Source: Segetibacter koreensis DSM 18137 (GTDB taxonomy: Bacteria > Bacteroidota > Bacteroidia > Chitinophagales > Chitinophagaceae). From it: 64,000 nucleotides of DNA. The notes under the pieces are model-generated. The model saw only the letters and a program-made list of their open reading frames with translations. It had not been told where the DNA came from and searched no databases. The stretch is taken from contig NZ_KB893315.1 in the NCBI RefSeq assembly GCF_000374045.1, positions 124,111 through 188,110 of the forward strand. Reading direction: 5' to 3'. Positions 3,052 through 57,696 of this stretch are shown here, one piece after another. Numbering within the stretch: position 1 is the first letter of the stretch; the number at the start of each line of letters is the position of its first letter. A program made the translations under genes and the position numbers.

Positions 3052-3194
3052 AGTTCAGCTTTAAAGAATAAAAATAAAATTTCTTGATTAATGAATAAAA
3101 AAAGGAAAGTACACGTAAAGTGATCTAACAATGTTTAATAAGTTTTCGAAGGCATATGCAACCAAAACTTCAACACGAAAAATGCTAATGATCC

Positions 3195-4986: not shown

Positions 4987-6483
4987 ATGGCAACAAATTC
5001 CACCTTTAACAACAATATAGATTCCTCAAGATTTTTCGGCGAAGGTTTAACCTTCGATGATGTGTTATTACTACCTGGATATAGCCAGGTATTACCACGT
5101 GATGTAGATATTAGCAGCCAGCTTACAAAAAGTTTATCTTTAAAGATCCCTATGCTTTCTGCGGCTATGGACACTGTCACAGAAGCTAAACTGGCTATTG
5201 CCCTTGCCCGCGAAGGTGGTATAGGTATTCTTCATAAAAACATGAGTATTGACCAACAGGCCGAACAGGTGCGGAAGGTCAAAAGAAGCGAAAGCGCAAT
5301 GATTATCGACCCAATCACTTTAACTGTCGACTCCACAATTGGCGATGCAATGCGGCAAATGAGAGAAAACAGAATAGGAGGAATACCCATTGTTGACAAT
5401 TCAAACAAACTTGTAGGTATTCTTACAAACCGCGACCTGCGCTTTGAAAATAACAGGCAGCGTAAGGTTAGCGAATTAATGACAAAAGAAAATCTCGTGA
5501 CCGCCCCAGAGGGAACCGACCTTAAACAAGCTGAAGTTATTCTGCGCCAGCATAAAGTGGAAAAATTACCGGTGGTAGATAAAAGTGGAAAATTGGTGGG
5601 ATTAATAACTTTCAGAGATATTTTGCATTTGCGGAATTTTCCAAATGCTGGTAAAGATGTTTTCGGACGACTTTTGGTAGGTGCGGCCCTAGGTATTACA
5701 AGAGATATGCTTGATCGTGCAGCGGCATTGCAGCATCTTGCCGTAGATGTAGTAACACTTGACAGTGCCCACGGACATAGTAAAGGGGTAATTGATGCCT
5801 TAAAATCTTTAAAGAGCAATTTTAAAGATTTGCAGGTAATTGCAGGTAACGTGGGAACGGCCGAAGGAGCAAAAGCGCTGGCAGAAGCCGGGGCCGATGC
5901 AGTGAAAGTGGGCATAGGACCAGGCTCGATTTGCACCACGCGTATTGTAGCAGGCATCGGAGTTCCGCAATTAACTGCAATTATGGAAACCGCAAACGCA
6001 CTAAAAGGTACAGGTGTTTCATTGATAGCTGATGGAGGTATCCGTTATACAGGAGATATGGTAAAAGCCCTTGCCGCCGGAGCAAATTCAGTAATGATGG
6101 GAAGCATTTTTGCCGGAACAGAAGAAAGCCCCGGGGAAACCATCTTTTATGAAGGACGACAATTTAAAGAATATCGGGGAATGGGATCTTTAGGCGCCAT
6201 GGTAGATGGCAGTGGAGACCGTTACTTCCAGGATGTGGAAGAAGACATAAAAAAATATGTTCCCGAAGGTATTGAAGGTCGTATCTCATATAAAGGACGT
6301 GTAAATGAAGTTGTATACCAGTTCACAGGAGGGCTTCGTGCGGGTATGGGGTATTGTGGAGCAACAACGATACAAGATTTGCAAAAGGCACGCTTTGTAA
6401 AAATTTCTAATGCAGCAATGCGTGAAAGCCATGTACACGATGTAGTTATTACAAAGGAAGCACCCAATTACAGCCGCGGCTGA
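4987..6483 (+). CDS. guaB: IMP dehydrogenase
   Basis: Inosine-5'-monophosphate dehydrogenase, about 498 residues, catalyses the NAD-dependent oxidation of IMP to XMP, the committed step of GTP synthesis. The TIM barrel is interrupted by two CBS domains around residues 95-215. The catalytic Cys is in [11 protein letters not shown] near residue 316. The flap region with [12 protein letters not shown] and the C-terminal YKG...[11 protein letters not shown] are present. The ATG at 4987 is chosen because an in-frame TTG six bases upstream overlaps the promoter -7 box. It appears intact and housekeeping. Confidence 0.96.
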
Positions 6484-6546
6484 GTTATTATCGGTAGTAA
6501 CAAGTGATAATAAAAGCTTCGCACCATTTATTTTAATAGTTGAAAA

Positions 6547-6625
6547 GATTGAGAAAATTGTTTAAAGCAGAATTCAAATCAAAGTATATCTTAGTAAATC
6601 GACTTCTGCTTTAAACTTCTCAATC
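6547..6625. terminator. long inverted repeat downstream of guaB
   Basis: The arms 6547-6572 and 6604-6625 are complementary in two blocks (GATTGAGAA with TTCTCAATC, and TTTAAAGCAGAA with TTCTGCTTTAAA) around a 31-nt loop. No strong T run follows. It lies about 65 bp after the guaB stop and is most likely a bidirectional transcription end. Confidence 0.45.
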
Positions 6626-6775
6626 TGTTCTTATTCTTCCCCGTATTTTTTTCTTAAAAACGACAGCCACCGTTTTACCTGGTACCTGTTGTAAATAAAA
6701 CTTTTCTGAGACCTCTCGGTTAGCAAGAGAAGTAAAAGATATATTTACTACCTCATCAATTGCTATTCTCACCAT
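6620..6775 (-). CDS. possible 51-residue protein; rest of the guaB-TMEM220 gap is empty
   Basis: In the 490-bp gap between guaB and the next gene, the minus strand carries an ATG at 6775 and a stop at 6620, giving 51 residues. The peptide is basic at its C-terminus (VVFKKKIRGRIRTD), has no recognised domain, and ends inside the inverted repeat downstream of guaB. Its amino-acid composition looks plausible, but the length and lack of any homology I can name keep this tentative. I see nothing else in 6776-6971 apart from promoter-like AT-rich DNA. Confidence 0.25.
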   Translation of the reverse strand: MVRIAIDEVVNISFTSLANREVSEKFYLQQVPGKTVAVVFKKKIRGRIRTD

Positions 6776-6971
6776 TTCCGGAATGATGCAGCATTTACTT
6801 TTTTGAATAGTAATTCAAAAATAAAAGTACAACCAGCAGCGTGGTCTTTTGTTATAGAAACATGACGAAAATCACTTTTGCAAGTTGAAACTTTGAAAAT
6901 AATTATTGTTATTTTTACAATTCATAATAAATTAATTTCGTTTTAAAAGCAATTCTCATAAAAAGACTATT

Positions 6972-7340
6972 ATGTTCTTAAGTATTCTAAACGGTTTTTT
7001 CTGCATTGCATTTGTTTTGTTTGCCTATGTAAATCTCAATGATAAGGACTCATGGCTTTGGGTACCCATTTATATGGTCGCCGCTATTTGCTGCGGTCTT
7101 GCAGCATTCGGTAAATTTTACCCGGTCATATACCTTATTGCGATTGCCTTTTATCTTATTTACGCTATACAAATATTTTTTTCCAAAGACGGTGTGCGTG
7201 ACTGGGTATTAAAATATAATAGACCGAGCATTGTAGAAAGCATGCAGGCCACCAAGCCCTACATAGAAAAAACAAGAGAGTTTTTTGGATTGCTCATTAT
7301 AAGTGCCGCTTTAGCAATAAACTATTTTATAGCAAAATAA
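6972..7340 (+). CDS. TMEM220-family membrane protein
   Basis: A 122-residue integral membrane protein with four predicted helices (about residues 1-20, 27-45, 49-68 and 102-120) and a short polar stretch with KYNRPSIVES between helices 3 and 4. Length, helix spacing and the N-terminal FAYVNLND...LWVPIYM stretch fit the TMEM220 family, whose function is unknown. It ends 16 bp before eboA in the same direction, so it may be the first gene of the ebo transcript. Confidence 0.7.
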   Translation: MFLSILNGFFCIAFVLFAYVNLNDKDSWLWVPIYMVAAICCGLAAFGKFYPVIYLIAIAFYLIYAIQIFFSKDGVRDWVLKYNRPSIVESMQATKPYIEKTREFFGLLIISAALAINYFIAK

Positions 7341-14252: not shown

Positions 14253-15368
14253 TTAAAATTTAAAAGCTGCTCCTACATTTATTGAATAATCAGCAAACGC
14301 TGCATCACCTCTAACAAATTTACCGCTCTTAGCACTATTCTCTTTATCAGTTACACTTTGCAAACGATTACGAACTATTGCCACAGGTACTGACGCAAAG
14401 AAATTGACATTTTTAAATCCATAGTTAACAGATGGCTCAATTGACCAAATATAACCGGGACGGCGAAAATCTCCACTTCCGCCAATAAGATCATGAACAG
14501 GAATACCCTCAATACGGGCACCTGCTGCTACTGATAAACCTTTTATGTGGTTGAACATGTAATTAAATCCGCCGCGTGCCATGTATTGGTCGGGCACACT
14601 CATAATAGCTTCATTTGCAAGAGCCGGACTTAATGTTTCCCTGTAAGTTCTTACCCCATTTTGCTCTCTTGGATTCGCGAGGTAGTAAAAGTTACCATAA
14701 ACACTAAAATTGTGAGTGAAATTGTAGAAAGTGTTTGCTTCTACGGTAAGCCCTGTACCACCATCACCTAATTGTATGGACTGATCTACCGTACGCAATT
14801 CTTTTGTTCCGTTCGGGCCTACATTGTACCAGTAATCCTGATAATTATAATCACCTGTTGGCAATTTAATGCCCAGCCCTAATTGAATGTTTCCTTTCAC
14901 GTATTTGGCCGGGTCAAGCAACCAACGGTAAACTGCTACCCTCACGTCTCCCAAACCAAAAGAATGGGTAGAGTGTCTTTCCTTTTTTATGTACGCGCCA
15001 TTTACCAGGCCATGCTCATATAAAGAGGAACGCGCATTTGATATTACAGGAGCATCTACTGTCATAGACCACCGATCATTAAAAATACGTGTGAGGGCAA
15101 GGTCAGTAATAAATGTATGATTTATAACCTCTGTACCTTGTATTAGCCTGTCCTTATTTTCTTCAGTTCCTGAAAAATGCCTGAAGGACTTGTAATACCT
15201 TTCGCTTGTACTAAATTGCCATCCCGCTTTATTTGTACTTTGGGGGTGGGCTAACATGCAGGTTGCACCGCTTCCTTTTATTGCGACACAGCCCTGCGCA
15301 TTAATGGTATTATTTGTAGCAATAATTATAATTAGTGTAGCAATAACAATTGATAAAATATTCTTCAT
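14253..15368 (-). CDS. outer-membrane beta-barrel protein, transporter-like
   Basis: A 371-residue protein with a signal peptide (about residues 1-24, cleaved after INAQ). Alternating hydrophobic/aromatic strands run to a C-terminal Phe (SINVGAAFKF), the hallmark of an outer-membrane beta barrel. It contains motifs like LGIKLPTGDYNYQDYW and LQLGDGGTG that are common in the phenol-degradation 'transporter' barrel family. It lies about 100 bp downstream of the haloperoxidase-like gene on the same strand, suggesting a joint role, but the substrate is unknown. Confidence 0.75.
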   Translation of the reverse strand: MKNILSIVIATLIIIIATNNTINAQGCVAIKGSGATCMLAHPQSTNKAGWQFSTSERYYKSFRHFSGTEENKDRLIQGTEVINHTFITDLALTRIFNDRWSMTVDAPVISNARSSLYEHGLVNGAYIKKERHSTHSFGLGDVRVAVYRWLLDPAKYVKGNIQLGLGIKLPTGDYNYQDYWYNVGPNGTKELRTVDQSIQLGDGGTGLTVEANTFYNFTHNFSVYGNFYYLANPREQNGVRTYRETLSPALANEAIMSVPDQYMARGGFNYMFNHIKGLSVAAGARIEGIPVHDLIGGSGDFRRPGYIWSIEPSVNYGFKNVNFFASVPVAIVRNRLQSVTDKENSAKSGKFVRGDAAFADYSINVGAAFKF

Positions 15369-15468
15369 AATAAGTTGTTTTTTTATTTTTTACCGATGGT
15401 TTTGGGGAAAGGATGAACTTAATAGGTTGCAATAACCCTATGAGCTCGGTTTGGTTTTAGTTTATTTT

Positions 15469-16788
15469 TTAGTTCTTCATATGTAAACGTTGTAAAACAA
15501 AAGTGCCTACTTTAATACCTTCATCGCGGCCTACATCGCAGGAATGTTTGAAATGAATACCGCCATATACCCTGGAAATAGCCGCCTCTTTAGCAGCTTC
15601 CCTGACAGATGTAAAGGAACGGTTAGGAACGCCAAATTCCAGTTCTGAAGAATCTGTATAGTGCACATTATCACCAAAGTAATGGGTCATTACTTCTGCT
15701 GCCGCTGCTGATATAACGGCATGACCGCTCGAATACTCTGGAAACGGTGGTGTTTGAATGTAAGGTTGCCATTCTGGATTTACATATTTGTTTATTACTG
15801 TTTCGGGTCTTATATAATTGCTCCTGAATTTTTCATCCCAACAACTGATAAACGCTTCAAAGAGTGCGATAGATGTTTGAGTATAGGCAGAAACGGTAGT
15901 ATTGAAATCAGCTTTCTTATTAGCCGCAATAATGCCTACAATATTCATCCAGTGGCCTGCGGGTGAAAACTTTTTAGTAGCGTACATTACGTGTCCGTTC
16001 ACATTCAGCTTAAATGAATTGTCATCCCAGAAATCAGCGATATGTTTTTGCTCTGGAGTTAAACTGTCCACGCAATTTTTGACCAGCATCATTGCACTAT
16101 AAAATGCACTTGACTTATTTGTAGGTTCATACTTTGGTGGACGAACTGGCTTGAACTGCGAACAGGAATCCATCACCAGCGTTCTTATTTCCATCCAGTG
16201 CGGCTCTACTGCCTGGGCATACATAGGCGGGGTGGGAACCCATCTGCCTTCCTCATTGGTTACAGAAAACTTGCTGGCGCTTCGTATTTTTGCATAATTA
16301 TCATTTTTGCTCCAGCTCATTATACTGTCAGCTACCAGGTTTGCATATTTCACACTGCCATCAAATACGTCAGTAGGCATACCTGCATCTTTTACCTGGT
16401 CTTTTAATGCATCAACATAAGTATCCATACTGCCCTCAGGAAAGGTAACTGCATTGCCAACCTTACAAAAGGCAATTAATGCAGCAAAAGGAAAGTCTAT
16501 TTTATCTTTCTTATCAGGCTTTGGTATCGGATTCAACTCATGAATTTGCCCTGCGAGCGATGTATAATTCTTATCTCCCGCAGCAATCACTTCGTAAGCG
16601 GCAATGTTTGCATAAGCATAGTTACGGGCAGCAATCATAGGTGGAAAATTATTTTCCAACACTATGTCATTCAGCTTCTTTACCGTTTTACTATACAACA
16701 ACGGGTCATGTGTTACTTTTACATAATCACCTTTTTTACACCCATACAACAGCACTGTTATTACAAAAGCAACAATCAATTTATTCAT
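15469..16788 (-). CDS. vanadium-dependent haloperoxidase / PAP2-type lipoprotein
   Basis: A 439-residue protein of the vanadium haloperoxidase/PAP2 superfamily. It begins with a lipoprotein signal (IVAFVITVLLYGC, lipobox Cys at about residue 16). The phosphate/vanadate-binding motifs PFPEYSSGHAV near residue 350 and YGGIHFKHSCDVGRDEG near 410 provide the catalytic His and Arg residues. The family includes halogenating enzymes and acid phosphatases; the sequence alone does not decide between them. It is probably cotranscribed with the downstream barrel protein. Confidence 0.85.
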   Translation of the reverse strand: MNKLIVAFVITVLLYGCKKGDYVKVTHDPLLYSKTVKKLNDIVLENNFPPMIAARNYAYANIAAYEVIAAGDKNYTSLAGQIHELNPIPKPDKKDKIDFPFAALIAFCKVGNAVTFPEGSMDTYVDALKDQVKDAGMPTDVFDGSVKYANLVADSIMSWSKNDNYAKIRSASKFSVTNEEGRWVPTPPMYAQAVEPHWMEIRTLVMDSCSQFKPVRPPKYEPTNKSSAFYSAMMLVKNCVDSLTPEQKHIADFWDDNSFKLNVNGHVMYATKKFSPAGHWMNIVGIIAANKKADFNTTVSAYTQTSIALFEAFISCWDEKFRSNYIRPETVINKYVNPEWQPYIQTPPFPEYSSGHAVISAAAAEVMTHYFGDNVHYTDSSELEFGVPNRSFTSVREAAKEAAISRVYGGIHFKHSCDVGRDEGIKVGTFVLQRLHMKN

Positions 16789-17101
16789 AGTACATTAATG
16801 AAAAAAGTTCTCATTTTAATGAAATCATTTTTTGTAATCATGTGGAAATTTTCACAGCAACAGCGATGGCTCCAACTATAATTTTTGTCAAGCTTTTTAA
16901 TTCAAATCTCTTGATAAGCGCTAATAATGCATTGAAGCAGTTGTTGAAAAAGTTGTTTAAACCAACATTTACTTTGTTGTTGCAGAAATGGATTCTACAG
17001 TACAAGAGTGCGACGCAAGACAAGATTAATAGCGGCACTAAAGCCCGGTACAAAAGATTACTTTAAAGCGCAATTGCCATAAAAAATCCCCCAATGAGAG
17101 A
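16789..17101. other. intergenic, no supported gene
   Basis: Both strands are open here for about 70 codons, on the same bases. Neither peptide has a recognisable domain, and each would overlap the other completely. I see no terminator hairpin of note. Treated as non-coding. Confidence 0.5.
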
Positions 17102-17662
17102 TTAAATTATCTCAGGTGGTTGTTCTGGTAACCGGGAATGAGAAGAAGGTAGAAAGTTAGATTGTGAAGGAACCGTGTAAGTATGTTGAATACGCCGGGT
17201 GGCATATACATATTCATAAGTATTTATGTTATACTCTGTTTGAAGATTTTTAAATACACCGGCCTTTGTGTTGCCTGATTTCTTTGATTGGTTGTTTTGA
17301 ACCAAATCATTCGCATATTTAAAAAATTCGTCTTTTGCAGACTCAATTCTCATTTTATCATGGTCTGGCAAACACAACAAAATTAGATTACCATTAGAGA
17401 TTTTACGTTTAACGTATTTTAATATTTTTCCGTTAACGGTTATTTCACCGTCTACACGTTCAAAACTTTGTTGATTATTAACATACGGCAGAGAGAGCGG
17501 AACTTTGATTGTAACCAAATCGGCATCATTATAATCCTGTTTGTCAAGCGAGGCTTCAAGTCTTATATCTGATTGCTGCTGCTCATAATTAAACAGTATT
17601 CTGTATCCAAAAAGGTTAAACAGGAATAATACAGTTAGTAATATGGCAGATAGCTTTTTCAC
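17102..17662 (-). CDS. hypothetical membrane-anchored protein
   Basis: A 186-residue protein with one N-terminal hydrophobic segment (LSAILLTVLFLFNLFGYRIL, about residues 4-23) that is a signal anchor or uncleaved signal peptide. The rest is polar and includes a beta-rich part around residues 30-95 (SLPYVNNQQSFERVDGEITV) and a Pro-rich C-terminus. It has no Cys that would make it a lipoprotein and no recognised domain. It lies about 150 bp from the peptidase gene on the same strand. The function is unknown. Confidence 0.6.
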   Translation of the reverse strand: MKKLSAILLTVLFLFNLFGYRILFNYEQQQSDIRLEASLDKQDYNDADLVTIKVPLSLPYVNNQQSFERVDGEITVNGKILKYVKRKISNGNLILLCLPDHDKMRIESAKDEFFKYANDLVQNNQSKKSGNTKAGVFKNLQTEYNINTYEYVYATRRIQHTYTVPSQSNFLPSSHSRLPEQPPEII

Positions 17663-17814
17663 AAATCGAGGTGGAAAATAGTACTAAATTTATTTACAGC
17701 AAAAATTAAAATATGAAAAAATGCATTTAATTGTTCTTACAGACAATTTTCTTGTTTAAATCGCTGCTTATCGGTTTTTTGAAACTTTTGATAATTTGTA
17801 AAAAGCTTTGCCTA

Positions 17815-19317
17815 TTATTTCAAATCATTCATCTTTTGCTTCAAATAATTCACAAACACGGTACTATCCAATTTTTTACCAGTTACCTTACTGCACAATT
17901 CGTCACTAGTGTAGTATCTGCCGTGCGCATGCACATTCTTTCTAAGCCAATTAAGTAACAAAGCTGTATTGCCTTCATTAACAATATGACTCTCCAAACC
18001 TGGAATATCAGCTTTTGCCTGCTCCCAGAATTGCGCCGCATAAAAACTTCCGAGGCTGTAGGTGGCAAAGTATCCAAAACTTCCATGGCTCCAGTGTACA
18101 TCCTGCAGGCAACCTTGTTTGTCATCGGTAACCTCTACTCCTAATAAAGATTTATACTGGTCATTCCAGTATAAGGGAATTTCTTTCACCTGCAAAGAAC
18201 CTTCTATCAAATGCTTTTCAAGCTCGTAACGTACCATAACATGAAAATGATAGGTAAGTTCATCTGCTTCAGTTCTTATCAACGAGGGTTGCACCTTATT
18301 AACTGCCCTTAGAAATTGCTCTTTTGAAATATTATTAAACTGATCAGGAAAATATTGCTGCAGCTTGGGATAATAATATTGCCAAAAAGCCCCTCCCCTT
18401 CCTACACAGTTTTCCCACAATCGAGACTGAGATTCATGTATGCCTAAAGAAGCATATTCACCTAATGGCAAGCCGTATTCCTCTGCGGGTAACCCTTGCT
18501 CATACAACGCATGACCTACTTCGTGTATGGTGCTCCAGGTCATGTTAGCGAAATCATTTTCATCTATTCGTGTAGTAATTCTTACATCGTGGCTACTAAA
18601 GTTGGTGGTAAAAGGATGTTCCGATATATCTTGCCGGCCTGCGGCAAAGTCAAAACCAAGTTGCTTCGCGAGGTATGTACCCCACTCCCATTGTTGCTGC
18701 GTGGGAAAATGCTGGCGAAGAAAGTAATCTTCTGCGACCAATTTTTCGGTTACCTCATATAAAAGGTCAAGTAACGGATTTTTTATATCTGAGAAAACCT
18801 TGTCTAACATTTGCACCGTAGCTCCTTTTTCATACTCGTTCATTAGCGCATTGTACGGATGACCTTCATACCCCAGCAATTCGGCTTCCTGTCTTTTTAA
18901 ATCGACTAATATAGTAAGCGAAGGCTCAAATATTGAAAAATTGTTTTGTTTTCGTGCCTCTATCCATGCGTGAAACGCTGCGGATACTGCCTCACTCATT
19001 TTTCTTACAAATGCAGGTGATAGCTTTTTCAGTCGGTTATAATCTTCTAGTGTAAGCTCTGCATTTCGTCTTTGTCTTTCCGTCAATTCCCGGGAGAGCA
19101 ACTCCTTTAAAAGATTGCCAATATTTTCACCAGTAAACATTTGGTGTGCCATTTCACTTAAAGTAGCTATTTGCCTTCCCCGAAAACCTGCTCCTTTTGG
19201 GGGCAAATACGTTTCCTGGTCCCACTGCAATACTGCTGCCGAATATTTTACATCTGCAATTTTCTGCAACTCATCCCTGTATTGACTGTACAACGCATCA
19301 GAAGAATATGTCCTCAT
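17815..19317 (-). CDS. M32 family metallocarboxypeptidase
   Basis: A 500-residue thermostable-carboxypeptidase-1 type zinc peptidase that removes C-terminal amino acids. The HEXXH zinc motif HEVGH is at residues 265-269, and the third ligand Glu sits in the family motif GIHESQSRLWEN near 295. The N-terminal LQWDQETYLPPKGAGFRG and the C-terminal DVHWSHGSFGYFATYSLGS signatures are intact, and the length is the usual one. No signal peptide, so cytosolic. Its 5' end faces the tRNA gene, with about 160 bp between. Confidence 0.94.
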   Translation of the reverse strand: MRTYSSDALYSQYRDELQKIADVKYSAAVLQWDQETYLPPKGAGFRGRQIATLSEMAHQMFTGENIGNLLKELLSRELTERQRRNAELTLEDYNRLKKLSPAFVRKMSEAVSAAFHAWIEARKQNNFSIFEPSLTILVDLKRQEAELLGYEGHPYNALMNEYEKGATVQMLDKVFSDIKNPLLDLLYEVTEKLVAEDYFLRQHFPTQQQWEWGTYLAKQLGFDFAAGRQDISEHPFTTNFSSHDVRITTRIDENDFANMTWSTIHEVGHALYEQGLPAEEYGLPLGEYASLGIHESQSRLWENCVGRGGAFWQYYYPKLQQYFPDQFNNISKEQFLRAVNKVQPSLIRTEADELTYHFHVMVRYELEKHLIEGSLQVKEIPLYWNDQYKSLLGVEVTDDKQGCLQDVHWSHGSFGYFATYSLGSFYAAQFWEQAKADIPGLESHIVNEGNTALLLNWLRKNVHAHGRYYTSDELCSKVTGKKLDSTVFVNYLKQKMNDLK

Positions 19318-19457
19318 ATATTTATTTTACCGCTTCGTAAAGAAGTAAAGATACTTACAAGTTTGGCGGAGAAAGGTTTGTAACCTCCAAAAGCTATCTG
19401 TAAAGCATTATAAATAGCAATACTGCAAAAAACACTTTTTTTAAAGAAAAAGAGACC

Positions 19458-19465
19458 TATATTTG
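19458..19465 (+). promoter_or_regulatory. -7 box of the tRNA promoter
   Basis: TATATTTG sits 11 bp before the mature tRNA 5' end and matches the Bacteroidota -7 consensus TAnnTTTG. A T-rich stretch lies at the expected -33 distance but without a clear TTG. Confidence 0.5.
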
Positions 19466-19476
19466 CACCCCGAAAT

Positions 19477-19550
19477 GGCGAGGTAGCTCAGCTGGTTAGA
19501 GCATCGGATTCATAACCCGAAGGTCGGCAGTTCAAGTCTGCTCCTCGCTA
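19477..19550 (+). tRNA. tRNA with CAT anticodon (Met)
   Basis: A 74-nt cloverleaf. The acceptor stem GGCGAGG pairs with CCTCGCT with a G-T first pair, the D-loop carries AGCTGGTTAGA, the anticodon loop is TTCATAA and the T-arm carries GTTCAAGTC. The CAT anticodon means elongator Met, initiator Met or lysidine-modified Ile; the absence of a GGG/CCC anticodon stem argues against the initiator. The CCA end is not encoded. The 3' part from 19490 serves as attachment site for the genomic island. Confidence 0.9.
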
Positions 19551-19551
19551 C
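19490..19551 (+). repeat. left attachment repeat (attL), 62 bp, within the tRNA gene
   Basis: The 62 bases from the D-loop to one base past the discriminator recur without a mismatch at 56329-56390. The copy at this end remains part of a complete tRNA, the normal outcome of integration by a tRNA-specific tyrosine recombinase. Confidence 0.92.
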
Positions 19552-19560
19552 TTGTTGAGG

Positions 19561-19587
19561 CCCTGGTTTTTATACCGGGGTTTTTTT
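19561..19587 (+). terminator. terminator supplied to the tRNA by the island
   Basis: A CCCTGG/CCGGGG stem (one G-T pair), an 8-nt loop and seven Ts start ten bases after the tRNA. The original tRNA terminator seems to be the one now downstream of attR (56395-56428). Confidence 0.75.
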
Positions 19588-19701
19588 ATTGAAGTGCAAT
19601 ATGGATAAGGGTTTTAACAAAGTATGTGTAATGAAAAATACCACTGAAATTATCGTCCGTTAAAAATTATTTTCTCCTAATATACATAAAAAGTCTCGTT
19701 A

Positions 19702-19726
19702 AGTGACGCATATAGTGGCGCACTTT
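19702..19726 (+). repeat. 25-bp subterminal repeat, left copy
   Basis: A 25-bp sequence with AGTGACGCATATA and GGCGCACTTT halves that recurs at 56266-56290 in the same orientation with one mismatch. The outer bases GTGACGC and GCGCAC are nearly inverted. It lies 150 bp inside the left end. It could be an arm-type recombinase or excisionase site. Confidence 0.6.
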
Positions 19727-19831
19727 TTTGTAAAGCCTACGCTAGTAAGTGTAAAACTTAAATCTTTTTTCTTATTTACTATTTAACATCACAAATGATG
19801 AGGCAAGTGAAATGCTTTAAAACAGGAGGGT

Positions 19832-19969
19832 GTAAGTCTAGATTTTATTCAGGAAGCTTTAGGTCATGGTAGTCCTGCTGTGACAGAGCACTATTTAAAT
19901 GCATTCGAAGATCCGGTTTCATACAAGCATATCGATAAACTAAACCAATATTTTAAGGGGTCAAATTAA
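19832..19969 (+). pseudogene. C-terminal remnant of a tyrosine recombinase
   Basis: This frame encodes 45 residues with the typical end of a Bacteroidota integrase: SLDFIQEALGHGSPAVTEHY, in which the catalytic His of LGH and the nucleophile Tyr are kept, then a polar tail and a stop at 19969. Upstream of 19832 related residues (ASEML, KNRRV) can be found only by changing frame, and no start codon or other catalytic motif exists. It is a decayed fragment, left by an earlier element or by recombination between integrase genes. Confidence 0.75.
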
Positions 19970-20450
19970 CTCCTAGTGTTTCCCTCACCACAATTCTTTT
20001 TTTTACTTTTTGAGATATTAATATTTGTAGTGTTTGAATTTTTTTTTGTCCTTTTTTTTAATTTTTGCAAAGTTTCTTTTACTTTTGTGTTGTATTAATA
20101 AGAGCAAATTCTTGTTATTTATTCATATCAGAGAGCTTTCTAAAGCACTCTTAGGACCCCAAATATATTTCGTTTTAGAACTGTTGATAGCGTTCATTAC
20201 TTAGCTATTACATGCATCACGTAGTGCAAGTAGGAATTCAACTTTCTGAAGCAACTAGATTACCTCTATTGTATAAATTTAATTGTAAGATTAGCAGAAG
20301 TAATCTATAGTAATCTTTTGCTTTTTTTAATGATCATGCGTTAACGTATCGACATTACAGTATTATGGCTGTTTACAATCAATGGATTTGTGTGTAGATA
20401 GTAATTTAATTGCAAATAGTACACTGATTATTTAACTAAAAAGTTATAAA
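19970..20450. other. AT-rich intergenic region, no gene seen
   Basis: About 480 bp with long T runs. A TACTTTTG box near 20080-20095 matches the Bacteroidota -7 element, but no TTG stands at the proper distance. No ORF of plausible composition is seen. Confidence 0.45.
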
Positions 20451-41664: not shown

Positions 41665-41767
41665 ATTTTTAAATCAAAATCTATGGCAGAAAACAAAATT
41701 TTCACTCTTCGTTTACCAGAAGGAGTAGATGTAAAAATTGAATTTGTTCAACCCCCAGAATCTGGGC
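41665..41767 (+). repeat. leader repeat, copy 2
   Basis: Identical to 41399-41501 over 103 bases including the untranslated bases before the ATG. Such identity next to diverged flanks points to recent gene conversion or duplication. Confidence 0.9.
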
Positions 41768-41880
41768 CAGGCGGAGACATCAAAGTTAATCCCGACGTAA
41801 AATTGGCGGTTGAAGATCTGGGGATGGGGAATATGAAATGGGATGGTTGTGGATGTGGAGGCGGTAACTGCTCATGTTAA
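41683..41880 (+). CDS. ribosomal peptide precursor with Cys/Gly-rich core
   Basis: A 65-residue precursor. The leader (residues 1-45) is beta-strand-like and acidic: KIFTLRLPEGVDVKIEF, PPESGPGGD and VKLAVEDL. The C-terminal core is MKWDGCGCGGGNCSC with four Cys in two CxC pairs spaced by Gly-rich residues. The frame is open upstream to 41575, but the ATG at 41683 is chosen because the duplicated block starts just before it. A radical SAM/SPASM gene follows 63 bp downstream, so thioether or other radical crosslinks on the core are likely. No similarity to a named precursor family is claimed. Confidence 0.8.
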   Translation: MAENKIFTLRLPEGVDVKIEFVQPPESGPGGDIKVNPDVKLAVEDLGMGNMKWDGCGCGGGNCSC

Positions 41881-41943: not shown

Positions 41944-43329
41944 ATGAACAAACTTTCCAAATATGTTGTCTTTTCTGACTTATTTACTGATCCTACTGAC
42001 AATTCAGAAAAGGTTATAGTTTATAGCACGAGAACAAACGAAATGAGTGTACTTACTCGGGACGAGTTCCGATTTGTTAAGGGTAATACGTTGCATGCAA
42101 TAAGTTCTTGTTTAACTGATAAGTTAGCTGAAAGTAAAGTCTTGGTACCGGAGGATGAAAATGAATTAGAAATTGTTATAAGGGAAAACCTGGAGGCAAT
42201 TAAACATGACCAAACCCTTTTTATATCGATCCAACCCACGGCTAGTTGTCAATTGGGGTGTGACTATTGTGCACAAAAGCATACAGCTAAAAAGCTAGAC
42301 CAGGAACTTGAAGAAAAGATAGTTGATAGAATTATCAATAAGTTGATTAAAGGCGGGTACAAAAGTTTGGAATTGGCCTGGTTTGGTGCAGAACCCTTAA
42401 CGGCTTTGAGTTCGATTAGGAGAATCAGCAACAAAATTTTTGATTTTATTGATGAAAATAGTATAAGTTATAATTCAAGAATAGTAACTAATGGGATTAA
42501 TCTTACAAATAAAATAGCAAAGGAATTATTTTCGGAATTAAGAATTGAATACGCAGAAATTACCTTAGATGGAATAGCCGAGTATCATAACAAAAGACGG
42601 ATGTATAAAAAAGGCGAAGGCACCTTTGATATTATTCTAAATAATATTGAAGCAGTCGTAAATGATCCTTTTTGCTGCTTAAAAATAAGTATCAGATGTA
42701 ATGTCGATAAAAGAAATAAAGATGCCGTTATCCCTTTATTGGACTTATTAGCATTAAAAGGATTGGATAAGAAAGTTGATAACTTTTATGTCGCTCCTAT
42801 TCGATCTTGGGGAAATGATGTATCTTCTATCGTTGCTGATATGGAAAGTTTTGGAAACTGGGAAATAGAATGGTTTGCAGAATTAAAAAGGAGAGGTATG
42901 AAATTTACCCTATTGCCTAAGAGAAAAAAAATTTTATGTATGGCTGTAAGAAAGGGAGCGGAATTATTTGACTCATATGGGGATATTTATAACTGTTCAG
43001 AAGTCAGTTACATTCCCCAGTACGAAGAGGTTATTGACGGGCAGAAAGTCAATAAGTACTCTATAGGACATATTAATAAGGGTATGAAAATGGAAAATGA
43101 GATCATGATTAAGGATTTTTATTCTAAAATTTTTGATGGGAATTATAATTGTAATAATTGTGAAATGCTTCCGACTTGTGGAGGCTCGTGTCCAAAATCA
43201 TGGCTGGAAGGGGAAATACCTTGCCCTCCTGCAAAATTCAACATCAAAAACCGGCTATTATTATCTTATTTCTTAAATAAAGAAGTATTACACATTCAAA
43301 ATGAAAAATCAGGAGGATGTCAGGGATAA
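41944..43329 (+). CDS. radical SAM/SPASM peptide maturase
   Basis: A 461-residue enzyme. Residues 1-95 hold an N-terminal region with the look of a small peptide-binding domain. The radical SAM cluster motif CxxxCxxC is C102, C106 and C109 in CQLGCDYC, followed by AWFGAEPL (GGEP-type motif) near 148 and VTNGINL near 180. The C-terminal SPASM-type cluster has CMAVRKG, YNCSEV, CNNCEMLPTCGGSC and a final IPCPP, enough ligands for two auxiliary Fe-S clusters. It most likely modifies the Cys-rich core of the upstream precursor. It overlaps the next gene by 29 bp, so the operon is coupled. Confidence 0.88.
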   Translation: MNKLSKYVVFSDLFTDPTDNSEKVIVYSTRTNEMSVLTRDEFRFVKGNTLHAISSCLTDKLAESKVLVPEDENELEIVIRENLEAIKHDQTLFISIQPTASCQLGCDYCAQKHTAKKLDQELEEKIVDRIINKLIKGGYKSLELAWFGAEPLTALSSIRRISNKIFDFIDENSISYNSRIVTNGINLTNKIAKELFSELRIEYAEITLDGIAEYHNKRRMYKKGEGTFDIILNNIEAVVNDPFCCLKISIRCNVDKRNKDAVIPLLDLLALKGLDKKVDNFYVAPIRSWGNDVSSIVADMESFGNWEIEWFAELKRRGMKFTLLPKRKKILCMAVRKGAELFDSYGDIYNCSEVSYIPQYEEVIDGQKVNKYSIGHINKGMKMENEIMIKDFYSKIFDGNYNCNNCEMLPTCGGSCPKSWLEGEIPCPPAKFNIKNRLLLSYFLNKEVLHIQNEKSGGCQG

Positions 43330-44293
43330 TATTTTTCGTTTCTTTTTTGAAGAAAGAGTAGGTGTGCAACTGATTGAGCCGGAAGCGAAAGGAGACTTAT
43401 TTGAAACAATCCTGCTCAAGGAACTCGGTAATAGGTTCGCGGAAGATGAATTGGTTCAATTTACAAGATTTAGGAGCTTTCTATTCAGCAGTATTACAGC
43501 AGCTCGGGAAAACCGAGTTCTGACAGCGACTACAATCATAAATAATGCCGCATTGGATTTTTTTAGTAATACTAAAAATGAGAAACTGAAAATTATTGGT
43601 AGTACGTTTTACTTATCGGCAAAAGCGTATTTGGAATATAAAAAGAATGATTTCCAACAGGCTTTTAATGATGTTCAAAAAGCTCTTAAAATAGATGAAT
43701 TATTGATTAAAGATGATAAAATAGGAGTATTCATTTTTCATTCCATACAATTAATACACAATTTAATTCGATTACAAAGCTCTACTGACAATAAAAACGC
43801 TGGTATGCAACTTTGTATTTCTACTATACAATTTCTTCAGTCAAGAACTACCGATCTATACTTTTTATCCCAAAAAGAAAAATTTGTGATGCTTGACTAT
43901 CCAAGGGAATTGAAACTAGCATTATTAGCTCAAGTTTTGCTTGAATTAGTTGATTTGATTATATTAGACAGTGCTGACATATATACTACCATTAAGAAGC
44001 AGGTTTCGCCAATGCTGTTTGATGAATTGCAGATAGTTGAGAAGTTTTTTGAGACAGAATCAATACCTGGATCACCATACTATTTCAGCTTCGTCTATGA
44101 AGTGCTGCAATGTGATAAAGCCTTTGGAGCATGTAGGATGTTTTGGTATTATCAAATCTATAGAATGATACTTAACAAAAGCCATGAGAAAGATACTGAA
44201 ACTTTCAAAAGTTTCACAACTAAATTCCTTGAATTACCTTTTGTACAAAAATTAGAAAAGAGAAAAAAGATAGAAAAATTTAAATATGCCTGA
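43301..44293 (+). CDS. hypothetical helical protein of the peptide operon
   Basis: A 330-residue cytosolic protein made almost entirely of helices. Residues 95-135 (FYLSAKAYLEYKKNDFQQAF and on) match the spacing of a TPR-like pair, suggesting a superhelical protein-binding scaffold. No catalytic motif. It starts inside the maturase gene and ends eight bases into the peptidase gene, so all three are produced together. A role as partner, chaperone or leader-binding protein is inferred from context only. Confidence 0.65.
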   Translation: MKNQEDVRDNIFRFFFEERVGVQLIEPEAKGDLFETILLKELGNRFAEDELVQFTRFRSFLFSSITAARENRVLTATTIINNAALDFFSNTKNEKLKIIGSTFYLSAKAYLEYKKNDFQQAFNDVQKALKIDELLIKDDKIGVFIFHSIQLIHNLIRLQSSTDNKNAGMQLCISTIQFLQSRTTDLYFLSQKEKFVMLDYPRELKLALLAQVLLELVDLIILDSADIYTTIKKQVSPMLFDELQIVEKFFETESIPGSPYYFSFVYEVLQCDKAFGACRMFWYYQIYRMILNKSHEKDTETFKSFTTKFLELPFVQKLEKRKKIEKFKYA

Positions 44294-45386
44294 CAAAGAC
44301 GTTGTTTTTCATGCGAATCGATGGATAATACCCTTTTTAAAGGAAGAAGCAGAAGGTGGCGAACAAGGAATTGACGACTGGAGTATATTTAATTTGCCCG
44401 AAGCCGGAGAGGGTGAGTTTGTTTTTACTGAAAAAAACGTTCAAGAAATTTATGACATCAATGAAAACCTTTTATTTGTCGATTTCGTCGCACTTATGCA
44501 GAATAATAAAGAGGTTAGGTGTAGGGTAAACATAGCAGATTTATCTTTCCCTAAAGTTATTTCTTACGGAGTTAATTCCCCCTTACAAATACAAAGTAAA
44601 GTTGACGAAGCCTTAAAAAAGGCTGGTGAACAGTATTTGACGGGAGATGAAAAAGAGACAAGAATTTATGCTTATGCTTATCCAAAATTAGGGATTAAAG
44701 TAAAAGATAAATCAGGAAACGAATTTGTTATGGATATAGGAGATAAAACTATTATTCCTCTCGAAACACGGCCAATAGGATCGACTGAATATATTGGTAT
44801 TTATTCTATGATCAATTTGATCGACGCAGTTGAAAAAGATTTATCTAAAGAACTTTACAATTCTTCAAAATTACCTAACTATCCAGATCTATTTATAGAT
44901 GTAGCTAGCAACGTTCGTAATGACTCCGATCTTACTCTTGAAAAAAAAATTTCAGGCTTTACTTTAATCCCGCAGCAAAAAAGTAATTACTGCGCTGTTG
45001 CGGTAGGTGAAATGATATTAAAGTTTTTTCAGTTTTCCTATGAACAGGACAGGATTGCGGAAGTGATGCGGGTCCAAGAAACCGGGGCACTTAATGATGA
45101 TCAAATAAGAGCATTGAGGGAACTTTCTAATAATACCCTAACATGTTTATTAGATTTATCCCCCTCTTTCAATGAAGCAGTTATGAACATTAATATTCTT
45201 CGTCCCTTAAAAAGTGGTATCCCCAGACACGCAAGAGCCATTGCTGGATGGAAAACGATTAAGGCGGAAAATAATCTTACAGAATGGGTTTATGTTTATG
45301 ATCCATGGCCCGTAAATGAAGGGAACATATACTGGGAAGACTGGACTTCGGTAAGGCATACCAACTATATTCTACTACCAGATTGA
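44286..45386 (+). CDS. C39/papain-like cysteine peptidase of the peptide operon
   Basis: A 366-residue protein. Residues 1-215 are beta-rich and not recognised. The C-terminal part is a C39-like (papain-fold) peptidase: oxyanion Gln in IPQQKSNYCAVAVG with the nucleophile Cys at residue 236, His at 315 in PRHARAIAGW, and Asp at 339 in VYDPWPV. There is no ABC transporter domain and no membrane helix, so it is not a bifunctional exporter peptidase. It probably removes the precursor leader in the cytosol. A GG-type cleavage site is not evident in the precursor, so the cut position is open. Confidence 0.75.
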   Translation: MPDKDVVFHANRWIIPFLKEEAEGGEQGIDDWSIFNLPEAGEGEFVFTEKNVQEIYDINENLLFVDFVALMQNNKEVRCRVNIADLSFPKVISYGVNSPLQIQSKVDEALKKAGEQYLTGDEKETRIYAYAYPKLGIKVKDKSGNEFVMDIGDKTIIPLETRPIGSTEYIGIYSMINLIDAVEKDLSKELYNSSKLPNYPDLFIDVASNVRNDSDLTLEKKISGFTLIPQQKSNYCAVAVGEMILKFFQFSYEQDRIAEVMRVQETGALNDDQIRALRELSNNTLTCLLDLSPSFNEAVMNINILRPLKSGIPRHARAIAGWKTIKAENNLTEWVYVYDPWPVNEGNIYWEDWTSVRHTNYILLPD

Positions 45387-45872
45387 AGTTTCAAAGAAGC
45401 TAAAGAAAAGGTACTGCTAATGGGAAGCAAGTAATTTCAAAGAAGGAAAAAGACGTATTTTACTTTACTGTCTAGCGGATTCAAAGTCCATTGCTCTTTC
45501 AAGGTTAAGGCTCATACAGATTTATTCGTTTCCATTCGTACTATAAAGAACGAACCATGAAACAAAGGTAAGTTGTGGTCTAGGTATGCTCTTGAATTCA
45601 AATAAATTACGTTAAATGTCGAGCCGGTGTCCAGCTTGGGATGGTAGGGTTTTTTACGATAGCTGCCAGAGCCGAAGCCTAATTGAAAACCCGTGATAAA
45701 GATAATGACTAAAAGCGTATTGTCAAGGTCAGTGCTGGGGAGAATTGAAGTTGCAGATTAAAGCCCCAAACGCGAATTCTAGCATTTTTTTACGTTGCTT
45801 GCATTTGCCAATAAGTACCCACAGATGTTTGGCACCAACCTTTACCCGTGTTTTTCCAGCTTACTTTTCAAC
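45387..45872. other. intergenic between peptidase and methyltransferase genes
   Basis: About 490 bp with no supported gene on either strand and no obvious terminator. Bases about 45610-45780 are richer in G and C than the island average. I looked for a small separate precursor gene here and found none. Confidence 0.5.
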
Positions 45873-45903
45873 TTGCTTTAGTTGCAAAAAAAACCTACTT
45901 TTA
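45873..45903 (+). promoter_or_regulatory. promoter of the borosin-type methyltransferase gene
   Basis: TTG at 45873-45875 and TACTTTTA at 45896-45903 are separated by 20 bp and match the Bacteroidota consensus except the last base. The predicted transcript starts after the in-frame ATG at 45882, so the ATG at 45921 is the usable start. The untranslated stretch (AACCT, T-run, TTTTAAATC) resembles the one before the precursor genes. Confidence 0.55.
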
Positions 45904-45920
45904 TTTTAAATCTCTTCAAT

Positions 45921-47168
45921 ATGGAAAATGTTGTTTCGAGTAACACGCCAAATAAGAAAACAACAAATAGTGACTTTAATTATCCTTTTACTGACTTCAT
46001 TATTTCTCTCGCAGACAGTGCAAATTTTAAGAATTATCTTAACAATGATGAACAGTATATGACAGACGTAGGCCTAAGTGAGGAGCAGAAATTGTCTGTT
46101 AAAGCCAAAGAATTTTACAGAGTTAGGGGTTTTCTTGCAAGAGAAATGGCAAACGATTCAATTCATGCTAGACTTCTAAATGAATTCATTGAATCTTTTA
46201 ATAAATATTCTAAAAATGATGAATTCACACATTTAACTGCTGATGTTGATGTTGACTTAGCACCTAATCATGATGTTGACCACGACGTCGATCATGGAGC
46301 AGAAGCGGAAAGCCATGTTTTACAAAAGAATTATTACAATTATTTATTTAAAAATTGGCAGAGGTTACACACTAACGAGGTGATTTTTATAGGTACTGGA
46401 ATAAAAGGCGCTAATCATATATCGGCAGAAGCGGACGCTTATATTGCAAATGCGTCTAAAGTATTGTATTGTGTCGCTGACTTAGCGGTTGAAAGGAAAA
46501 TTTTGTTATTAAATCAGAATTCAGAAGATCTGTATATATATTATGGCGACAATAAACCAAGAAGAGAAACTTATGAACAAATGGTGGATAGGATTTTGGA
46601 GGTAATAAAAACAGAAAAGCTAGTTTGTGTTGTGTTTTATGGGCATCCAGGAATTTTTGTTTGGCCTTCATATCAGGCTATAGAAAAAGCAAGAGGAATG
46701 GGGTATAAAGCTTCCATGCTACCCGCAATATCCTCGTTGGATTGCCTATTTGCTGATATAGGTTTCGATCCCTCGCGCTACAGTTGCCAAATAGTTGAAG
46801 CTACGGATCTTCTTATTAGATCTCGGAACCTAGATGTTTCTGCGTCCGTCATCATTTTTCAAATAGGATTAGTTGGAGATTTGGGTTACAGTTCAAAAGG
46901 ATTTGATGGAAGAAATGTTCCTATTCTTGCTGATTACTTATCCTCGTTTTATGGAGATGATTACGAAGTAATTATTTATGAAGCTGCTCAATATCCGATT
47001 TTTGAACCTAAGATTCAATTAATTAAGATTAATGAGCTTTCAAAAGCCAAGTTAACAGGCATAAGCACGATGTACATACCTCCGAAAGTCTCAAGAGCGA
47101 CAAATCAGGAGATGATTTCAAAATTGGGAATTAAACAATCAGCAAACAGCACGCAAAAAACCCATTAA
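45921..47168 (+). CDS. borosin-type peptide backbone N-methyltransferase with fused N-terminal binding domain
   Basis: 415 residues from ATG 45921. Residues about 152-390 are a tetrapyrrole-methylase fold of the borosin class: VIFIGTGIKG, LYCVADLAVERK, the RRETYEQM segment whose Arg and Tyr align with the catalytic R72 and Y76 of fungal OphMA, FYGHPGIFVWPS, MLPAISSLDCLFADIGFDP, VVIIYEA-like VIIYEAAQYP and a C-terminal ISTMYIPPK. Residues about 23-62 (FTDFIISLADSANFKNYL, then VGLSEEQK) resemble the borosin-binding domain of the bacterial precursor SonA. The linker 107-130 is rich in Asp, Val and His. The layout fits a self-methylating or precursor-fused borosin enzyme using S-adenosylmethionine; the actual core is unproven. 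Confidence 0.88.
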   Translation: MENVVSSNTPNKKTTNSDFNYPFTDFIISLADSANFKNYLNNDEQYMTDVGLSEEQKLSVKAKEFYRVRGFLAREMANDSIHARLLNEFIESFNKYSKNDEFTHLTADVDVDLAPNHDVDHDVDHGAEAESHVLQKNYYNYLFKNWQRLHTNEVIFIGTGIKGANHISAEADAYIANASKVLYCVADLAVERKILLLNQNSEDLYIYYGDNKPRRETYEQMVDRILEVIKTEKLVCVVFYGHPGIFVWPSYQAIEKARGMGYKASMLPAISSLDCLFADIGFDPSRYSCQIVEATDLLIRSRNLDVSASVIIFQIGLVGDLGYSSKGFDGRNVPILADYLSSFYGDDYEVIIYEAAQYPIFEPKIQLIKINELSKAKLTGISTMYIPPKVSRATNQEMISKLGIKQSANSTQKTH

Positions 47169-55126: not shown

Positions 55127-56254
55127 TTATAATTCTGGAGCATCATCATTATACGAATTATCACCTAAACCCAAACTCCTAAGATAGGTAAGGGTTACTG
55201 ATAAAGTGGAATGACCCATTGCTTTTTGTACCCGGAATGGATCTTTTGTTTTCAAATATACCTCTACTGCAGCCGTATGACGAAAACTATAAATGGTCTG
55301 GTTTTCTTTTAACAAACCTTCACCCATCAACAGACGTCTTATTCTCCCCCAAGCTGTTTTAAAGTAGTCCTTGTTAAACTTATCTTCTGTTCCGGTAAAA
55401 ATGTAGGTATTAAGGCCAAAAGACGAAACGTCTCGCTTTAAAAGTTCCTCCTGTACGTAGGAAGGTACTCTTATAATACGTATGCGCTTACCTTTGTTTT
55501 CATCCCCGCCTAAAGTGATGATACTGCAATTGTCATCCAAATGTTTACGTTTCAATAGTCGCACTTCTCGATGAGGACGTAGAAAACATCCGTACATTAG
55601 TAGAGTACATAGATGTAAATTTGGATGGTGTATTTTCAAAAAGTTTATAAGTGCCTTAAGCTGTTCTTTAGTATAAACGCTATTAAGCAGAGGTACAACC
55701 TTTTTCCTGCTTGTTTTTCTGACGGGATTGTCAGTTATCATTCCCTTTTGAACTATTCGCGTAAATATGCCTGACAGAGTGCTACGCTTAGTCATATAAT
55801 ATGCTGCAGATGACATATAAGATTTAAGAAAGTCATTAATGAGTATATGGTCAACGGCTTGGATAGAAACGTTAGTAAGCTTCTTGTCTCTACTAAACTG
55901 ATCAAACTCTTTACATATTCGTTGTAAGTCACTACGGTATCTATCGCTAATATCTTCATTTACAATTTCTTTCCTGATAAGATTAATACTTTCTTTGAGG
56001 GTGAGTGATTGTAACTTGTATTTATTCGTTTCATGTTCTGGATTCCAACCCTTTTCCAGCTTCTTTTTAAGTTCGTACTGCAGCTGTTTTAAAAGCCGAA
56101 GCTTCTCTACAGTATTTCCTGCTCTGTTGGGAAAACAGTGTATGTTGAGAAGGTTACCATTGTAAAATCGGTGTCGTGCACCTGAGATAAATACTTTTAC
56201 ATATGCCCTCGTAGCGGGATTACCTGTAAAGACAATTTCTGGATCTGTGTACAT
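55127..56254 (-). CDS. int: tyrosine recombinase (island integrase)
   Basis: A 375-residue site-specific recombinase. The N-terminal arm-binding and SAM-like domains cover about residues 1-180. The catalytic domain has Arg in FLRPHREVRLLK near 222, NKGKR near 250, the YSFRHTAAV segment near 320, MGHSTLSVTLTYL with His near 346 and the nucleophile Tyr near 354. The gene reads away from attR, with its start only about 75 bp from the repeat and a 25-bp subterminal repeat in between. It is intact and therefore the likely driver of integration at the tRNA. Confidence 0.92.
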   Translation of the reverse strand: MYTDPEIVFTGNPATRAYVKVFISGARHRFYNGNLLNIHCFPNRAGNTVEKLRLLKQLQYELKKKLEKGWNPEHETNKYKLQSLTLKESINLIRKEIVNEDISDRYRSDLQRICKEFDQFSRDKKLTNVSIQAVDHILINDFLKSYMSSAAYYMTKRSTLSGIFTRIVQKGMITDNPVRKTSRKKVVPLLNSVYTKEQLKALINFLKIHHPNLHLCTLLMYGCFLRPHREVRLLKRKHLDDNCSIITLGGDENKGKRIRIIRVPSYVQEELLKRDVSSFGLNTYIFTGTEDKFNKDYFKTAWGRIRRLLMGEGLLKENQTIYSFRHTAAVEVYLKTKDPFRVQKAMGHSTLSVTLTYLRSLGLGDNSYNDDAPEL

Positions 56255-56328: not shown

Positions 56329-56390
56329 AGCTGGTTAGAGCATCGGATTCATAACCCGAAGGTCGGCAGTTCAAGTCTGCTCCTCGCTAC
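56329..56390 (+). repeat. right attachment repeat (attR), 62 bp
   Basis: Identical to 19490-19551. The sequence before it diverges from the tRNA at the D-stem, so no functional tRNA is formed here. Confidence 0.92.
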
Positions 56391-56498: not shown

Positions 56499-57696
56499 AT
56501 GATTTCCCTACCGAACAACTGTTATTGCTCTGAATTAAAAGTCAATCCAAAAAACTGGAGAACATTAAAGAAGATAGCTAATGACTGGCTTATATACTAT
56601 AGATTCTACGGTCAGGATGCACGACATCGAGAACTGTATCCGAAAGGAAAATTAGTCAGAGTGCAGGGTATGAACCATTTCAAAACTTTACTGGACAGAA
56701 GAAGAGCAACCTTGCAGCTTCTTGAGGATGAGGTTAAAAAATTACAGCAGGGATTCAACCCTATCGTTGGGGATATTGCAGCACCTGTTAATATTAATAC
56801 TGTTGACCCCACTACTCCCTTTCTGCAGGCCCTAGAATTTTTTAGTTCCACCATATCCGCATCTCCATCTACAAAAAGAGAACTTAAAAGTATTTTAGGT
56901 TTTGTGAGTTCAGCAGCTGCACAGCCGCAATTTGACAATCTTAATATAGGTGTAATTAGCCGAAAGCACCTAAAATTATTGCTGGCACAGATTGAGAAGA
57001 CTCCGAGTGGAGAAAGTTATCACAGGTATAATAAAATCCGCAGCTACTTAATGATCTTATTTTAAGGAACTGGTGGAGCTGGAAGCAATTGACTATAATC
57101 CAGTCAGGGAAGTATCAAAGAAGAATGGAGTTAAATTGTTACGAAACGTTTTAACCTTAGAGGAAAGGGCTGTAATTGACAATTATCTGCGGGAACATGA
57201 CAAGGCCTTTTGGGTGTTCACACATATTTTCTTTCAATCAGGGGCAAGGCTCACTGAGCTTATGAAAGTCCGCCTTGATGATGTAAATATAGCTAAGCAG
57301 ACTTTTAAGGTTATTGTTATCAAAGGCAGGTCAAAAAAAGAGGTTTTAAAGCCCATTAAAAACGTTGCTCTTCCCTTTTGGATTGAAGCGATTAAAAACG
57401 CTGCTCCTGGCCAGTATATTTTTTCTGAAGGATTAATCCCCGGAGATGAGCCTATAAGAACAGATCAGGTAACCAAGAGGTGGTCGAGGCATATTAAAAA
57501 GAAACTGAAGATAAAAGGGGATTTTTACTCGCTAAAGCATTCAAACCTTGACGAAACTGCAGCACTCCTTTCCTTAGCTGATGCTTCGGCTATGGCTTCA
57601 CATACGTCTGTAAACGTTACCAGAAAATTTTACGCTGTGGGAGAGCAGGAACGCCAGAACGAAAGACTAAAGAATCTGGATAATACATTATCTTAA
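56499..57696 (+). pseudogene. tyrosine recombinase disrupted by a one-base frameshift
   Basis: The first frame (56499-57065) encodes 188 residues of an integrase N-terminal region with the start of the core-binding domain. One extra T in the run at 57060-57063 then produces TAA. The second frame (to 57696) continues without gap: VELEAIDYNPVREVSKKN, then Arg in GARLTELMKV, the YSLKHSNLDE box, ASHTS and the Tyr in RKFYAVGEQ. All catalytic boxes are kept, so the frameshift looks recent. It is unrelated in detail to the island integrase and probably belonged to an older element at the same tRNA. Confidence 0.85.

Follow-up and report, generated by a model that had tools for sequence, protein, structure and literature searches.

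A fused borosin-type methyltransferase of probable type 0 layout in a tRNA-Met island of Segetibacter koreensis

The window analyzed here, a stretch of 64,000 nucleotides from Segetibacter koreensis, contains a segment of 36,901 bp (19490-56390) that reads as an integrated island because 62-bp repeats lie at tRNA-Met and at its far end, an integrase gene is present, and the GC content shifts (Table 1). The left copy of the repeat forms the 3′ end of tRNA-Met, and GC content in 2-kb windows is 0.29-0.36 inside these computationally placed borders and 0.36-0.41 outside them. The flank at 14253-20000 was matched in all 10 genomes of the genus (the window's own included), with pieces on different contigs in several of them, and the borosin gene was found in one of the 10, that of the window. 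At 25028 and 27107 the island has, by PADLOC models, a type III restriction system; an HKD/SNF2 helicase-type gene is found at 30232 and an HNH gene at 53702. It also holds two peptide-modifying gene sets, namely the borosin gene and a radical-SAM cassette located upstream of it on the same strand. The borosin and the three adjoining cassette proteins belong to no PADLOC family, except that the radical-SAM enzyme weakly matches pVip. Two further ORFs lie just beyond the right repeat, within 56499-57696; the second (57073-57696) matches a phage integrase, the first resembles by eye the N-terminal half of an integrase, and the pair is perhaps the remnant of another element.

Table 1. Coordinates of the island borders, the radical-SAM cassette, and the borosin gene with its parts in the window.
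Feature	Coordinates	Strand	Basis
Left copy of 62-bp perfect repeat, att-like, inside tRNA-Met (19477-19551)	19490..19551	+	Repeat and tRNA searches
65-aa Cys-rich peptide, candidate precursor of the radical-SAM cassette	41683..41880	+	Translation
Radical-SAM/SPASM peptide maturase	41944..43329	+	Nearest model TIGR04463, E 2.6e-70, under cut-off
TPR-like protein	43301..44293	+	Sub-threshold TPR; homolog beside G1329 radical-SAM gene, E 6e-8, 90 residues
C39-peptidase-like protein	44286..45386	+	Sub-threshold Peptidase_C39_2, E 0.0016
Fused borosin protein, 415 aa: probable binding domain, core-like linker, α-N-methyltransferase	45921..47168	+	ORF, PDB and Pfam matches, structure model
Probable SonA/LigA-like borosin-binding domain, residues 22-77, five predicted helices	45984..46151	+	Profile and sub-threshold Pfam matches, model
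Asp/Val/His-rich linker, candidate core peptide, residues about 99-136	46215..46328	+	Low-confidence model stretch, alternation test, fast evolution
Methyltransferase domain, residues 152-405; Y208, R214, Y218 at OphMA active-site positions	46374..47135	+	Pfam, PDB sequence and fold matches, alignment
Tyrosine integrase adjoining right repeat	55127..56254	-	PF00589, E 1.1e-11
Right copy of 62-bp perfect repeat, att-like	56329..56390	+	Repeat search

The borosin gene begins with an ATG at 45921 and ends with its stop at 47168, with an in-frame TTG at 45882, and a promoter and terminator scan gave scores no better than those of shuffles. The original prediction had delimited this ORF correctly, and the motifs quoted there are present in the translation. 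It had also called the product a borosin-type peptide N-methyltransferase, an assignment borne out by homology. With the 415-aa protein as the query, each of the 25 PDB sequences listed at E ≤ 1 belongs to a borosin enzyme, and residues 152-405 match dbOphM (E 5e-60), OphMA (2e-57), and SonM (6e-44). The 50 fold matches listed, out of 880 at E ≤ 10, are all OphA, dbOphMA, SonM, and MroMA entries, and they cover about 255-272 columns, which is the size of the methylase part. Diphthine, corrin, and rRNA methylases, named beforehand as the nearest homologs that would speak against the call, head neither list. Y208, R214, and Y218 align with the Tyr, Arg, and Tyr of dbOphM, each being kept in 27 of the 28 relatives, and their spacing equals that of the OphA mutants Y66F, R72A, and Y76F given in PDB titles. 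In SonM, activity drops on mutation of Y58, R67, or Y71 (PMC8429565, in excerpt), while in KchMA the R79A and Y83F variants are strongly reduced and Y73F retains most activity (PMC11395268, in excerpt). On these homologies, the protein is a member of the borosin α-N-methyltransferase family, for which peptide methylation is predicted. A search for a second borosin in the window's genome gave a weak partial match (E 0.11).

Three relatives are built in the same way. These are L005 from Pseudomonas laurentiana (NZ_BMQU01000057.1; 47% identity over residues 22-403), L011 from an IMG/VR contig (48% over 22-408), and one in G1329 (L021/L031; 34% over 17-409), a genome from the family group of the L007 genome, Trinickia dinghuensis (Burkholderiaceae by label). 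In a tree with 28 other methylase rows, the window protein clusters with L005 and L011 (support 98/98), and the layout of binding domain, linker, and methylase was read by eye in 3 of those 28 rows. The methylase nearest to the window's outside this trio belongs to a split relative in G1247 (L022/L033), with 53% identity. Its separate precursor of 122 aa has an N-terminal domain similar to that of the window protein (36% over 39 residues, E 0.009-0.010) and continues from there into an alternating stretch. The precursor gene (5808-6176) overlaps the methylase gene (6173-7024) by 4 bp, and because so close a split relative has adjacent, overlapping precursor and methylase genes, the window protein reads as a fusion of the two. 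At the same locus (L033, 5808-7647), the split pair is followed by an ORF that resembles by eye a 2-oxoglutarate-type dioxygenase.

The distribution of borosin genes is sporadic. Methylase matches were found in 1 of 10 genomes of the window's genus (its own), in 2 of 294 of its family, and in 2 of 395 of its phylum, its own genome being included in each count; elsewhere they occur in 10 of 369 genomes of the class of G680 (E ≤ 1e-20) and 9 of 299 of the family of G681 (E ≤ 1e-40). The plasmid search matched 13 records, none over 80% of the query, and the matches begin at residue 152 or later; the same picture was seen with the L005 protein among the 10 of 13 rows listed. The L011 protein had no match in phage GenBank records, nor did the L005 DNA in E. 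coli genomes, and a second scan of viral contigs recovered the L011 contig again (as L030).

Ahead of the enzyme, the Pfam model LigA matches residues 25-65 under its cut-off (E 0.0074 with the full protein, 0.0004 with residues 1-120 alone), and a sub-threshold LigA match recurs in all three like-built relatives (L005, E 0.0025; L011, 0.011; G1329, 0.0023). The separate precursor of L008, 83 aa long, gave no LigA match in the Pfam search. SonA chains are named LigA-domain proteins in the PDB. As a single query, the N-terminal sequence of the window protein finds no SonA match in the PDB, but a three-row profile of the binding domain has SonA as its best match, at E 0.02 (7 of the 11 rows listed), and a five-row profile, whose added rows include the separate SonA-like precursor of L008, reaches SonA at 2.6e-5. 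Chance resemblance is unlikely, since the profiles match SonA and the LigA match recurs in three relatives. Residues 22-77 are probably a SonA/LigA-type borosin-binding domain, the support being weak but repeated; the SonA-like domain of the original prediction is in this way upheld by profiles and recurrence, although not by the single sequence. The binding domain of SonA is a five-helix bundle, and its relatives cap dioxygenases (PMC8429565, in excerpt). An earlier structure model built on a two-row alignment was poor (mean pLDDT 42). The model built on the five-row alignment is modest (mean pLDDT 61, pTM 0.52) and shows five helices at residues 22-77 and low confidence over 76-143, ahead of the methylase. 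The structural comparison proposed for the N-terminal region has thus been answered in part, with five helices at modest confidence, whereas the fold matches listed are of methylase size.

Between the two domains lies the acidic linker, for which the original prediction had offered the alternatives of a methylated segment or a hinge. Residues 97-136 show polar/aliphatic alternation over 10 positions (p 0.011) and nine acid-aliphatic steps (p 0.009) against 20,000 shuffles; the stretches for these tests were picked by eye and all p-values are uncorrected. The longest-run test is not significant for the other proteins (L005, p 0.22; L011, 0.31; L021, 0.18; L033 precursor, 0.09), and the acid-aliphatic step test gives p 0.044, 0.013, 0.089, and 0.0066 in the same order. 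Between L005 and L011, dN/dS is 0.48 in the linker, 0.12 in the binding domain, 0.02 in the bridge that follows the linker, and 0.09 in the methylase. Type III borosin cores have acidic residues alternating with others, and KchMA prefers aliphatic residues, with some methylation of Asp (PMC11395268, in excerpt). The evidence leans towards the linker being a core peptide instead of a hinge, with methylation predicted: the linker is present at about residues 99-136 and is core-like in its alternation and dN/dS, but its fast evolution and acidity would also be compatible with a disordered hinge.

Repetitive ORFs were also seen beside other borosin genes. In genome G077, from the window's family, a 737-aa protein containing a borosin methylase domain is directly preceded by an ORF in which a long (DV)n run occurs (L004, 1-1342); this ORF is likely a separate precursor. 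On a Burkholderia arboris plasmid (L034, 6360-7286), an ORF with (TEV)n repeats lies just 3′ of a borosin methylase gene, and the repeats are possibly core repeats.

The window protein is likely to be a fused, self-modifying borosin with the published type 0 layout. In the proposed mechanism, the SonA-like N-terminal domain would dock on the methyltransferase and lead the Asp/Val/His-rich stretch (~99-136), which a short conserved bridge connects to the enzyme, into the active site. Backbone amides of the linker would then be methylated in a SAM-dependent reaction, with aliphatic positions the likeliest targets. As with OphMA and SonM, a dimer would be expected, in which methylation may occur in cis or by the partner subunit, and the core would later be released by a protease. 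Computation supports the methylase family with its active-site residues, the recurrence of the layout in three relatives, and the borders of the island; docking, methylation of the linker, protease release, and any joint action with the radical-SAM cassette are inferred.

Alternatively, binding domain and methylase may be fused while the core is a separate peptide, an arrangement described as "class 2" in a figure legend of PMC11395268, so that the Asp-rich linker would be a hinge and the Cys-rich peptide upstream would be the candidate substrate in trans. The evolution of the linker between L005 and L011 does resemble that of disordered sequence, and the Cys-rich peptide, whose cassette adjoins the borosin gene, has a seven-residue polar/aliphatic alternation of its own (p 0.042). 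However, the stretch common to L005 and L011 at E ≤ 1e-3 comprises the gene and ~250 bp upstream without a common peptide gene, the split relative L033 bears its core on the binding-domain protein, and the small ORFs in 45387-45925 include no convincing extra precursor. This arrangement is regarded as unlikely. A tetrapyrrole-type methylase acting on a small molecule or another non-peptide substrate was also considered, as Pfam TP_methylase matches the 415-aa protein at E 1.2e-14; the YabN and CbiE models match it far under their own cut-offs. This candidate was rejected as highly improbable, given that the PDB and fold matches listed are borosin enzymes throughout and that the active-site Tyr-Arg-Tyr is intact.

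The borosin protein and the neighboring cassette may also act on one hybrid peptide, which would then be both N-methylated on its backbone and altered by the radical-SAM pathway. The radical-SAM enzyme has a homolog in G1329 (38%, E 1.4e-104) that lies about 1.4 kb from the like-built borosin gene of that genome, with a homologous TPR gene next to it; this radical-SAM family is rare in the family group of G1329 (1 of 298 genomes). An aKG-HExxH peptide hydroxylase (TIGR04267, over its cut-off) likewise stands beside the G1329 borosin. On the other side, the radical-SAM and borosin genes of G1329 are divergent, the small peptides encoded at the two loci do not resemble each other, and no radical-SAM gene is present on the 3.6-kb contig of L005 or in the 11.2 kb examined of L011. 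The radical-SAM family was found in 2 of 22 borosin-bearing genomes, G1329 and G000, the latter being the window's own and the source of the query. In the window's family, 6 of 288 genomes have the radical-SAM gene, and the other five gave no borosin match (their inclusion in the borosin search being inferred); around the radical-SAM genes of those five, no borosin gene was seen, one of the stretches stopping at a contig end. The association of cassette and borosin is suggestive and rests on one independent case, and a shared hybrid product is considered improbable. The Cys-rich peptide (residues 2-65) matched no family. Radical-SAM relatives at three other loci (L047, 3750-5309; L048, 3117-8119; L049, 6348-7971) lie near small Cys-containing peptides, with no borosin in the stretch examined.

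The relative on the viral contig bears on the possible role of such proteins. The genes of L011 run in the order replication nickase, ParA, repressor, PDC-S59, borosin, portal, large terminase, and scaffold. PDC-S59 (2879-4192, minus strand), a phage-defense candidate by PADLOC (E 5.8e-187), adjoins the borosin gene. Across the portal-terminase stretch, identity is 72-73% to the Burkholderia P2-like phages heading a list of 271 matching records. At the DNA level, L005 and L011 have one common stretch at E ≤ 1e-3, with 85% identity, and the surroundings of the two genes are otherwise different. In E. coli P2-like phages, the gpA-gpQ interval is described as a hotspot in which anti-phage systems occur, as do partition genes and a toxin (PMC9122126, in excerpt). 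Judged from its neighbors, the L011 borosin occupies the replication-portal place of a P2-like prophage, which is this described antiviral hotspot. Such an address is no proof of a defense role, because partition genes and a toxin occur there too.

It has nevertheless been considered that mobile elements carry self-methylating borosins, encoded by one gene, for use in conflicts between phages or bacteria, because L011 lies in a prophage hotspot beside PDC-S59 and the window copy in an island with restriction and helicase genes. The methylated core might then act as an effector or signal that resists proteases, and the radical-SAM pathway would perhaps co-modify it in the window. This proposal is improbable, and in the excerpts of borosin literature searched no role of borosins in phage or bacterial conflict was met.

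A product or a purpose is known for few bacterial borosins. Being small and encoded by a single gene, a borosin that occurs in an island of Bacteroidota type, in a Pseudomonas genome, and in a prophage of P2-like kind would be a simple test object for the role of backbone-methylated peptides, and the phage location makes phage-competition assays an obvious first test. That two distant lineages pair it with a radical-SAM cassette suggests that peptides bearing both modifications are possible. With its core held between the putative docking domain and the conserved bridge, the protein might also act as a compact scaffold that N-methylates inserted sequences. The added interest of the window protein lies in its setting, namely an island at a tRNA gene, the neighboring radical-SAM cassette and its distant counterpart, and a relative in a phage hotspot.

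Borosins have been sorted into types 0 to XI, of which type 0 has the core at the N-terminus and the methyltransferase at the C-terminus of one protein (after Lee et al. 2024, ACS Chem Biol 19:1116; PMC11395268, in excerpt). FpeAM and SkoAM are named among the proteins with a C-terminal methyltransferase, and type XI (XulAM) has its methyltransferase at the C-terminus as well, together with an N-terminal domain of unknown function (PMC11395268, in excerpt). The original prediction had implied a novel architecture; this was rejected, as the fused type 0 layout and type XI, both with a C-terminal methyltransferase, are already in print (PMC11395268, in excerpt). The window protein, with its methyltransferase at residues 152-405 of 415, is probably a type 0 member, placed by the published description of the layout, and it is a new member instead of a new architecture because the order of binding domain or core followed by methylase has been published as type 0.

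Compared by description alone, the window protein resembles FpeAM and SkoAM in its N-terminal candidate core and C-terminal methyltransferase, and XulAM in the C-terminal methyltransferase, whereas the N-terminal domain of type XI is of unknown function and that of the window protein looks SonA-type. SonM-SonA, of type IV, is likened to it through the methylase (6e-44) and the probable SonA-like binding domain, but is a pair of separate proteins, in contrast to the single fused protein of the window (PMC8429565, in excerpt). The binding domain occupies residues 1-53 in SonA, its probable counterpart residues 22-77 in the window protein, and the SonA core is short (62-71), whereas the linker is longer and acidic (PMC8429565, in excerpt). 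The fungal, fused OphMA and dbOphMA are the nearest solved methyltransferase sequences (2e-57 and 5e-60); in both, the clasp and core follow the enzyme, whereas the domain and linker of the window protein precede it.
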